Positions 1,388 through 31,208 of a stretch of 32,339 bases of DNA are shown in pieces. Under the pieces are notes generated by a model, which searched no databases, was not told where the DNA came from, and saw nothing but the letters and a program-made list of their open reading frames with translations. Made by a program: the position numbers and the translations under genes. Source of the stretch: Bacteroides sp. (GTDB taxonomy: Bacteria > Bacteroidota > Bacteroidia > Bacteroidales > Bacteroidaceae); contig JAGATY010000012.1 of NCBI GenBank assembly GCA_017621035.1, forward strand, positions 1-32,339, given 5' to 3'. Each line of letters opens with the position of its first letter. Position 1 is the stretch's first letter.

Positions 1388-2179
1388 ATGAAAAAAGTAT
1401 TCATACCTTTGCTTTCACTGCTATTGATGTTGGCAGGATGTAGTTCTGTCCCGGTGACAGGACGGAAACAGATTTTGTTGGTATCCGATCAAGAGGTGTT
1501 GGCCTCCAGCCTTACGCAATACAACGACTATATGAAGTCGGCTCCAAAATCTTCCCAAAAGACACAATCAGCCATGGTTACCCGCGTTGGTAAGAAGATA
1601 GCAGCAGCTACCGAAGCGTATCTGCGTGCGAACGGTTTGGCATCGGAAATCAGCAATTTCTCCTGGGAGTTCAATTTGGTGAAAGATGATCAGGTGAATG
1701 CTTTTTGCATGCCCGGCGGTAAGATTGTGGTGTATGAAGGTTTGATGAAACTCGTCTCCTCTGACGATGAGCTAGCCGTAGTGATTGGTCACGAAGTGGC
1801 ACACGCTGTAGCCAAGCATAGTAATGAACGGATGAGCCAACAGATGCTTACACAATATGGTGCCAAGATTCTCTCGCAAAGCCTCTCGCAAAAGAGTAGT
1901 GCCATACAGGCTGTGGCCAATCAGGTGTATGGTATCGGTGCACAATATGGTGTCACCTTGCCTTTCTCTCGCAAGCATGAGACTGAAGCCGATTACATGG
2001 GGCTAATATTCATGTGCATGGCGGGTTACAATCCGGACGTAGCTATCAACTTTTGGCAAAAGATGTCAGCAGGAAGTACTTCTAAGGTTCCGGAAATAAT
2101 GAGCACGCACCCCAGTGACGCCCGCCGCATCAGTGACATTCAGCAGGCATTACCGGCAATCAAAGCCAAATACAAATAA
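1388..2179 (+). CDS. M48-family zinc metalloprotease, lipoprotein (BepA/LoiP-like)
   Basis: A 263-residue lipoprotein peptidase. The signal peptide ends in a lipobox with Cys18 (LAGC). The zinc site is HEVAH (His135, Glu136, His139), with the third ligand probably Glu198 in HETEAD, as in M48 enzymes. The protein has no membrane helices beyond the signal, so it is the short periplasmic type (E. coli BepA/YfgC and LoiP/YggG are relatives) that acts in quality control of envelope proteins. An upstream in-frame ATG at 1361 lies within the -7 promoter box; starting at 1388 (MKKVFIPLL) gives a proper lipoprotein signal. A glycine-zipper lipoprotein follows after 17 bases, suggesting one envelope-maintenance operon. 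Confidence 0.9.
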   Translation: MKKVFIPLLSLLLMLAGCSSVPVTGRKQILLVSDQEVLASSLTQYNDYMKSAPKSSQKTQSAMVTRVGKKIAAATEAYLRANGLASEISNFSWEFNLVKDDQVNAFCMPGGKIVVYEGLMKLVSSDDELAVVIGHEVAHAVAKHSNERMSQQMLTQYGAKILSQSLSQKSSAIQAVANQVYGIGAQYGVTLPFSRKHETEADYMGLIFMCMAGYNPDVAINFWQKMSAGSTSKVPEIMSTHPSDARRISDIQQALPAIKAKYK

Positions 2180-2196
2180 CTCATAACCAAGAACGG

Positions 2197-2841
2197 ATGA
2201 AATCTTTTCTCATTACAGCCATACTCATATTGCTACTCTTCAGTAGTTGTATCACTAGCAATCAAACACTGGGGAGTGGTGACCCTACAGCAACTATGGC
2301 CGGTGCTTCCATCGGTGGTAATCTTGGAGGTGCCATCGGTGGATTGATTGGTGAAGGAAACCGAGGTCCAAGAGGTGCTTTCAGAGGTTCAGCCATCGGA
2401 AGCATTATAGGAACCATTGCCGGAGCAGCTATTGGTAACGCTGTCACTGCTCCTAAGGCAGAACAAAACGAAGTGATTCCTTCCACAGCCAACAGTCACG
2501 ATGGATTACGCATCCGTAACATCCGATTCATCGACACCGACCGCAACCACATCATCTCTTCCGGTGAAAGTTGTAAAGTAATCTTCGAGATTATGAATGA
2601 AGGGACAGAGACAGCCTACAACATTGTACCCGTGGTGGAAGCTATCGGAACCAAACGACTCTACATTTCTCCCTCTGTGGTTATCGAACAGTTAGCTCCT
2701 GGCGATGGCGTGAAATACACTGCCAACATCAATGCCGGCAACCGCATGAAGAATGGTGAAATCACCATTCACGTTGCCGTTGCTGACGATTACGGTCAAG
2801 AATATGTTTGGCAAGAATTCAACTTGCAGACGGAGAGATAA
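2197..2841 (+). CDS. Glycine-zipper lipoprotein with CARDB-like C-terminal domain
   Basis: A 214-residue predicted lipoprotein: hydrophobic signal then Cys18 (LLFSSC). Residues about 28-88 are a glycine zipper rich in GGxxGG and AIGxxxG spacing (GGNLGGAIGGLIGEG, then AIGSIIGTIAGAAIG), which usually packs as a membrane-inserted helical hairpin. Residues about 100-214 resemble a CARDB/Ig-like domain: LRIRNIRFIDTDRN, SSGESCKVIFEIMNEG and a strand-rich end. Located 17 bases after the M48 protease and directly before the pseudouridine synthase, probably co-transcribed. Function unknown; pairing with an M48 lipoprotein suggests an outer-membrane role. Confidence 0.75.
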   Translation: MKSFLITAILILLLFSSCITSNQTLGSGDPTATMAGASIGGNLGGAIGGLIGEGNRGPRGAFRGSAIGSIIGTIAGAAIGNAVTAPKAEQNEVIPSTANSHDGLRIRNIRFIDTDRNHIISSGESCKVIFEIMNEGTETAYNIVPVVEAIGTKRLYISPSVVIEQLAPGDGVKYTANINAGNRMKNGEITIHVAVADDYGQEYVWQEFNLQTER

Positions 2842-7703: not shown

Positions 7704-8711
7704 CTATCTCCATGGGAAATCGGGAGGTAACGGATATCCCTTTACTGTTTCTCTTACAGAAGAACTGAAACGCCTTACCTCCCGCTTCACCTGCTCCGTT
7801 TCATGGCCCAACACTTTGTACAGAATACCGGCCCGATTGGGGAGTTGTGTGATGCCTGCTACCAACGAATGAGCATTGCTGAAAAAACCCTCGGTGTTAC
7901 GCTCAAAACCCTCAGTGTTACGGCCAAAACCCTCAGTGTTTTTTGCAAAAGGCTCGGTGTTTCTGTAGAGGTGTTCAGCCTTGTCAGGAGGAGTAACTAC
8001 AAAGACGTTGGCAAGCACATCGAAACCGGCCATAATGCCTGTTACAGAGAGTGATTGCAAGTTTGGTCGGAGCGCCATCTTCTCCCGGAAGAGAGAAGTA
8101 CCGTCCGGCCGATTACCTTGTGTGGTAATGGAGAGCAGGTCGTAAGCAAAACGTTCACCCGTACCGTAGTACCTTCTTCCGGAAGTCAGCAGTTCCACAT
8201 AAAGCAGCGTTGCTGTGGGGTGAACCGTCAGCAGATTGAAAGCAGCATGGCGGGTGTGTCGGCACGGAATCAATGGTTCGGGCAAATACTCCAGGTATCC
8301 ATCCTCCTCCACTATCAGATGTTGCCACTGACCGGAATAGTTAGCACGCATCTCCGCCAATTTAGTTGCCGCACCGGTGGAGACGTGAGCAAAAGCACCG
8401 GCCTTCACCCGAATTTCCTGATAGTATCGGTCGCCATCTACCTGGGGACCACCCGAAGAGAGGATGTAGACGCAGGGTAACTCTTTCCAAGCCTCATCAA
8501 AGTAGAGTGCCTGCTGCACAATGAGCGGTGCACGTCTGTCCAAATCGGCCAAGTAAGAGCGTCCGCCGACATCTTTGGCAAACTCCATCCTGAGATAGCC
8601 CTGTTTCCCCACCGCTCCTGCCGGCATGGCGTTGGGCTGTTTGAGATAAGGCGCCAGCTCCGGCAGATGAGAAAAGTCGGTTTTCATCATGGCCTCTGCT
8701 ACTGTTCTCAT
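7704..8711 (-). CDS. ureD: Urease accessory protein UreD (UreH), carrying an in-frame 21-bp repeat insertion
   Basis: A 335-residue UreD/UreH homologue, the scaffold that binds apo-urease and with UreF and UreG delivers nickel to the active site. Family features include QGYLRMEF near residue 40, STGAATKLAEM (residues 111-121), EYLPEPLIPC (141-150) and RPDGTSLFRE (201-210). At 335 residues it is longer than the usual 260-280. Part of the excess is a block of four heptads at residues 251-278 (NTEPFAK, NTEGFGR, NTEGFER, NTEGFFS) encoded by a 21-bp tandem repeat, in the variable segment before the final helical region. It starts 3 bases after ureG; GGAGG lies 8 bases before the ATG. Frame and flanking conservation argue that it is functional. 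Confidence 0.92.
   Translation of the reverse strand: MRTVAEAMMKTDFSHLPELAPYLKQPNAMPAGAVGKQGYLRMEFAKDVGGRSYLADLDRRAPLIVQQALYFDEAWKELPCVYILSSGGPQVDGDRYYQEIRVKAGAFAHVSTGAATKLAEMRANYSGQWQHLIVEEDGYLEYLPEPLIPCRHTRHAAFNLLTVHPTATLLYVELLTSGRRYYGTGERFAYDLLSITTQGNRPDGTSLFREKMALRPNLQSLSVTGIMAGFDVLANVFVVTPPDKAEHLYRNTEPFAKNTEGFGRNTEGFERNTEGFFSNAHSLVAGITQLPNRAGILYKVLGHETEQVKREVRRFSSSVRETVKGYPLPPDFPWR
7884..7967. repeat. Four tandem 21-bp repeats inside ureD
   Basis: Units start at 7884, 7905, 7926 and 7947, each 21 bases. On the coding (minus) strand the core is AACACTGAGGGTTTTGAG, giving the heptad NTEGFxR. The unit length is a multiple of three, so copies keep the ureD frame. The same core is found outside genes at 17369-17453. 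Confidence 0.92.
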
Positions 8712-17232: not shown

Positions 17233-17480
17233 AAGGAAAAAGATTGAGGGGTTTTGAGTCAAAAGTGAGGCTTTTTGAGTGAAAACAGAGGGCTTTTTCG
17301 CTTTACAACCGCTCGTTCTTCCTCCCTCATTTTTCATTCTTCAATCAAAACAGCCCTCACCGAGCTCAGTAACACCGAGGGTTTTGGCCGAAACAGTGGG
17401 ACTTTTGAGCAAAACAGTGAGGGTTTTGAGCGTAATACCGAGCGTTTTTGAGCGTTTTTGAGCGTTTTTTGAGGGTTTTG
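17233..17480. repeat. Intergenic array of the 21-bp repeat family
   Basis: The best units are at 17369-17389, 17390-17410, 17411-17431 (21 bases each) and 17432-17453 (22 bases), with core AACANYGAGGGTTTTGAGC on the plus strand. Shortened units (GTTTTTGAGC and GAGGGTTTTG) follow to about 17480, and looser ones (GAGGGGTTTTGAG, GAGGCTTTTTGAG) precede from about 17245. No convincing gene is present between 17211 and 17770. Confidence 0.75.
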
Positions 17481-26709: not shown

Positions 26710-26877
26710 GGAATAATCGCTTTCGTGAAGGTGATTATTAGCTGCCAGCCCGAAACCGTCGCCGTCACGAAGGCGATTATTAGCCACCGATAGGAAACCG
26801 TCGCCGTCATGAAGGCGATTATTCGCCATCGGTAAGAAATAATCTCGTTCACGAAGGCGATTATTTCGGGCGAAAAT
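26710..26877. repeat. Four tandem 42-bp units with internal palindromes
   Basis: Units start at 26710, 26752, 26794 and 26836, each 42 bases. All share the core CGAAGGCGATTATT or a close variant (GTGAAGGTGATTATT in the first). Units 1 and 4 contain AATAATC...GATTATT inverted repeats; units 2 and 3 contain GTCGCC...GGCGAT. The array lies between groES (minus) and the AraC-like gene (plus), in a 447-base intergenic stretch. Confidence 0.88.
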
Positions 26878-31019: not shown

Positions 31020-31208
31020 AGGGAATGAAGAATGAGGAAATGAAGAATAAGGGAATGAAGAATGAAGAATGAAGAATTAAGAATTAAGAATGAGGAATGA
31101 AGAATGAGGAATGAAGAGGGGTTGTTGAGCGAAAGCGAAAAATTTCCATCCGAACGGTATTCTTCATTTCCCGAGCGAAGCGAAGGTATTCTTCATTCTT
31201 CATTTCCC
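31020..31208. repeat. GAATGAA-rich simple repeats with an inverted copy
   Basis: From 31020 to about 31116 the sequence is an irregular run of GAATGAA and GAATTAA units. The complementary ATTCTTCATTCTTCATTTCCC lies at 31188-31208 and TATTCTTCATTTCCC at 31159-31173. GGGAATGAAGAATGAAGAAT (31051-31070) would pair with the right copy, giving a hairpin of about 20 bp. No gene is seen between 30937 and 31212. Confidence 0.75.

Follow-up and report, generated by a model that had tools for sequence, protein, structure and literature searches.

A dispersed 21-base tandem repeat in frame within ureD of a Bacteroides genome, at a site that resembles the repeat in array-less relatives

Dispersed minisatellites and in-frame repeats are already known, from BrickBuilt, the Rickettsia palindromic elements, and the TAACTGA heptamers. 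BrickBuilt of Porphyromonas gingivalis is described as a minisatellite/MITE with 23 nt units, present at 19 places in strain ATCC 33277 (PMC4596501). It shares with a 21-base family in the genome of a Bacteroides sp. (here G000) a host in the Bacteroidales, short head-to-tail units without spacers, presence at about twenty places, and confinement to a single species and its close kin; it differs in having a leader and a tail with inverted-repeat ends and in being reported always as intergenic, whereas the G000 arrays showed no common ends and include one that lies in frame within a conserved gene, the urease accessory gene ureD. The Rickettsia palindromic elements are like the ureD array in being repeat DNA that lies in frame in conserved genes and is translated, but are about 150 bp long and occur as one copy per site, not in tandem (PMC10969869); we rejected such an element for ureD, where the 84 bases are made of 21-base tandem units rather than a palindrome of about 150 bp. 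The TAACTGA heptamers are likewise short direct repeats in some Bacteroidetes, mostly intergenic with a minority within open frames near protein ends, but they have a 7-base unit of fixed sequence across distant phyla (PMC4679880), as against a 21-base unit in one species for G000. In Mycobacterium tuberculosis, leuA carries a coding VNTR, likewise a tandem repeat within a metabolic gene; its unit is 57 bp as opposed to 21 bases in ureD, and no mention of a resembling empty site was noticed in the text covered (PMC2704214). Word searches of open PMC papers brought up nothing that describes a 21-base family in Bacteroides or repeats within UreD, and nothing on a dispersed minisatellite in ureD or on entry of a repeat at a pre-existing near-match.

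The window, by which we mean the whole 32,339-nucleotide stretch analysed (contig JAGATY010000012.1, forward strand), carries ureD at 7704..8711 on the minus strand; a urea transporter gene (PF03253, 6615–7631) lies directly downstream on the same strand. The array-bearing protein has the UreD/UreH fold, and its match to the PF01774 profile (133.3 bits against a curated cut-off of 27) covers the whole profile (1–201). The array consists of 84 bases in four in-frame 21-base units, NTEPFAK, NTEGFGR, NTEGFER, and NTEGFFS, at UreD residues 251–278, and spans 7878..7961 on the minus strand. The original prediction had described the same four units and the same residues, and in these it was correct, as it was in proposing that the unit length preserves the reading frame, which is kept across the array with the remainder of UreD intact; its bounds of 7884..7967 are replaced by the span given here.

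The same repeat DNA is dispersed in the genome; the original prediction had noted its core outside genes elsewhere in the window. The family unit comprises a 13-base core, AACACYGAGNGTT, and eight variable bases, arranged head-to-tail in short arrays. Allowing up to one mismatch, the core has 23 matches in the G000 genome and a reversed control pattern has none. A sequence-only model built from 30 two-unit pieces of the family finds at least 40 matches at E≤1e-3, which we grouped into 23 places, so that the family is a dispersed minisatellite in the sense of head-to-tail units of 10–60 bp at several loci; because the model scored no more than 150 first-look candidates in each genome, its counts are minimum values and a lack of matches is not absolute. 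Four units is the commonest array size (12 of 18 arrays compared), and includes an intergenic array within the window at 17371..17454 on the plus strand, beside which weaker, diverged units lie at 17240..17302 (plus strand); one further, weaker array is present at about C36:19161–19244. Slippage alone does not explain this dispersal.

Nearly all of the G000 arrays are intergenic, as judged by inspection of open frames rather than from annotation, the exceptions being ureD and one orphan open frame of 300 residues. The orphan frame (G000:C36:18754–19653, L071:2555–3457) reads the array in another frame (AETPTLS AETPRVW EETPRSL), its linker is composed of the 21-base array and another dispersed repeat, for which C37 and C56 have matches, and it has no match among the other 157 genus genomes. 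Arrays also overlap several further open frames, 60 to 195 residues long, and the first codons of a frame of 394 residues; in our judgement these are spurious or start after the array.

The internal spacers have non-random ends (AC..AA 12, TT..GT 12, TT..AA 7, and AC..GT 1, among 50 spacers in 17 arrays). The core is near-palindromic and its 21-base spacing is about two helical turns, features of the sequence that would suit arrays binding a DNA-organising protein, with the ureD copy there by chance or for that role. We consider this the least probable of the explanations weighed here, as the core arms, the only part so tested, show no covariation and close congeners lack the family. RNA structure with covarying arms was rejected: the arms have 254 matched pairs, shuffled arms average 251.9, and 34% of 2000 shuffles reach 254, with array bounds set by us from the array layouts and two arrays out of register (L069 throughout, L072 in its first unit).

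The dispersal of the family would also be expected of a miniature element (MITE) inserted in ureD by a transposase, and three arrays (L066, L068, and L078) have long right flanks in common. However, neither common ends nor common terminal inverted repeats of the kind found in a BrickBuilt-like MITE were seen by eye in 23 array flank pairs, and relative to a close congener (G475, below) ureD has gained 21 residues of units alone; transposition in this form is very improbable. The flanks common to L066, L068, and L078 include AATTGTA-type heptads, and L077 and L162 also have long flanks in common, so some copying carries flanks along and composite repeats are copied together.

As far as the genomes show, the G000 family is restricted to one species among those compared. 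A loose tandem pattern matches in 10 of 158 genus genomes and exceeds two matches only in G000 (28), G033 (39), and G460 (41); the other seven have one or two matches each, apparently by chance, and we reject a genus-wide repeat. The nearest congener by groEL DNA is G475, at 90% identity in a ranking of the 141 of 158 genus genomes with a groEL match, and its assembly is 89% complete. Neither the sequence-only model nor the tandem pattern finds a match in G475, G530, G450, G518, or G516, and G007 has one marginal model match (E 0.04). In a named genome collection an exact pattern occurs in 15 stretches: two Bacteroides pyogenes strains account for eight, and the others are scattered across other taxa. 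For the intergenic arrays, alignments with G475, G007, and G516 extend no further than the flanking genes or the bases immediately beyond them, so among the G000 arrays the seeding proposed below is read from ureD.

The ureD array can be compared with array-less counterparts in relatives, so the entry step becomes visible. PF01774 matches are present in 11 of 393 order genomes and 5 of 158 genus genomes, both counts including G000, which gives 14 other UreDs, two of which (L020 and L175) lack the site. L175, the UreD of G484, has a frame that stops early at 245 residues with a family match to 1–135 of 201, and may be a disrupted gene or an artefact of assembly. The array is absent from all 12 informative other Bacteroidales UreDs, so heptad number is not equal everywhere, and the original prediction of an in-frame expansion of a dispersed repeat is supported in part, namely for the dispersed core, the frame, and the absence from other UreDs. 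The compared UreDs are 22–61% identical, such that the array-less site is read from relatives and not from the same species; 45 plasmid records of UreD are every one below 60% identity, and a peptide-pattern search of genome contigs yielded no confirmed UreD relatives. The UreDs of G475 and G000 are identical at 183 of 301 aligned residues and differ by one internal gap of 21 residues (63 nt), with a single heptad, QTEAFID, in G475 opposite the four in G000.

A point beyond the original prediction is that array-less UreDs resemble the repeat at the array's place of entry. The G475 site, CAGACCGAGGCTTTCATAGAC, scores 11 of 15 against the core, ranking first of 1796 positions on both strands of the gene; five of 20,000 shuffled cores match it equally well, and 0.028% of positions in 388 kb of G475 score 11 or more. 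The scores out of 15 in nine array-less UreDs, with the rank of the site within each gene, are 8 (27) in L011, 9 (9) in L012, 10 (2) in L014, 10 (1) in L016, 10 (1) in L017, 8 (11) in L019, 11 (1) in L172, 8 (30) in L173, and 9 (8) in L174. These nine UreDs, which are related to each other and hence not independent, have a mean score of 9.2 against 4.4 for shuffled cores, a mean reached by one of 20,000 shuffles; the set is the 14 others less L018 (which has an insertion of its own), the distant L010 and L013, and the two with the site missing, and the left-out L018, L010, and L013 score 10, 4, and 6. The protein alignment itself puts the gap beside a similar heptad, whereas the length agreement, exactly one unit between matching flanks, is independent of gap placing. 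The array probably sits where ureD already looked most like the repeat.

The units themselves are not alike in their affinities, using the array bounds we set. The inner two ureD units most resemble family units elsewhere, unit 3 having an identical counterpart in L079, and the outer two lie nearer the G475 segment, at 13 as against 10 of 21 bases, a nearness equalled by 8 of 58 intergenic units. These data bear on the alternative that the family was founded in ureD, with 21 resident bases duplicated there by slippage and later spread to intergenic sites. A ureD founder would explain the core resemblance of array-less UreDs without further assumption and agrees with the absence of the family from the closest congeners compared, but the ureD flanks are not seen beside the other arrays compared, it is the inner ureD units that are typical of the family and the outer ones that are atypical, and divergence in the intergenic arrays matches that in the ureD array. 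We regard such an origin as unlikely, though less so than any of the other alternatives.

We favour, with a probability of roughly 0.6, the reading that the ureD block is one coding copy from a dispersed minisatellite whose arrays enter sites with a prior resemblance to the unit, and that it lengthened a flexible loop. Ectopic template switching or gene conversion, starting at the near-match, would have brought the units into ureD, and because entry began there, register and frame would have been kept, with no ends required. More tentatively, an array may take over a near-match target unit by unit and in register, and homology seeding in genes may write in-frame heptads exactly where the protein had a similar heptad. 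The rule suggested is that arrays arise at targets already resembling the unit.

In the predicted UreD structure a helix occupies residues 242–257, residues 259–280 have pLDDT below 50, and a strand begins at 284, which suggests that the array region is a long flexible loop; on this model, a conserved metal-enzyme chaperone would have taken up genome repeat DNA as such a loop. The UreD of G113 (L018, locus 1408–2475, minus strand) has an unrelated acidic insertion at the array site, so the loop tolerates insertions, and we infer that the longer loop in G000 is tolerated rather than selected. The original prediction had suggested that copy number could vary between strains and tune the UreD-UreF interface; the corresponding alternative is that the heptads were selected for tuning UreD binding to UreF or urease, with unit number varying accordingly. 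The kept frame and the intact remainder of UreD are compatible with selection, and nickel travels through UreD en route to urease (PMC10121161), placing UreD on the nickel path. Adaptive insertion is nonetheless improbable given the low confidence of the predicted loop, the unrelated insertion that L018 carries at this position, and the mostly intergenic location of the same repeat DNA. Passages of PMC3792862, PMC10121161, and PMC7355429 did not show where the loop lies with respect to UreF.

A weaker parallel to the site resemblance in ureD is present in B. pyogenes. We took G033 to be B. pyogenes DSM 19673 and, by inference, G460 to be the other strain. Their unit, AACACGGCGGGCTTTGAAAAA, gives no match to the G000 model in G033 and one marginal match in G460, and we treat the repeat as a separate 21-base family. 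It is dispersed and has one coding array (L050 in G460, L158 in G033), in a gene whose protein has matches in 131 of 158 genus genomes. The coding arrays differ in their units between the two strains: that of G460 has five, one NTAGFEK and four KAAGFEK-like, and that of G033 has at least five complete NTAGFEK units, then a partial sixth followed by a run of N. Among the best 28 of 129 other genomes with a match, whose orthologues were aligned, 16 have an NTG/NIG-like motif at the array's place, with a mean DNA score of 8.7 out of 15, a value reached by 31 of 20,000 shuffled cores; the closest match, L195, agrees with the B. pyogenes unit at 16 of 21 bases. The motif is absent in the other 12, and scores of 9 or 10 are frequent on the minus strand of these genes as well. 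More tentatively than for ureD by itself, bacterial minisatellites may spread as homology-seeded templates that require a near-match of about ten bases and neither ends nor a transposase, in ureD and, independently, in the B. pyogenes gene.

The G000 genome is rich in tandem repeats. Many have a period of 7, 14, 21, or 22, and the unit is palindromic in some, as in GCACAAGATGCCATCTTGTGCA. Tandem Repeats Finder (TRF) gives 161 rows in 258 kb of G000 (L108–L127), compared with 93 in 388 kb of G475 (L128–L147). Within the window itself, a long array of GAATGAA-type heptads lies at 31022–31117 and a tandem array with a 42-base unit at 26752–26865.
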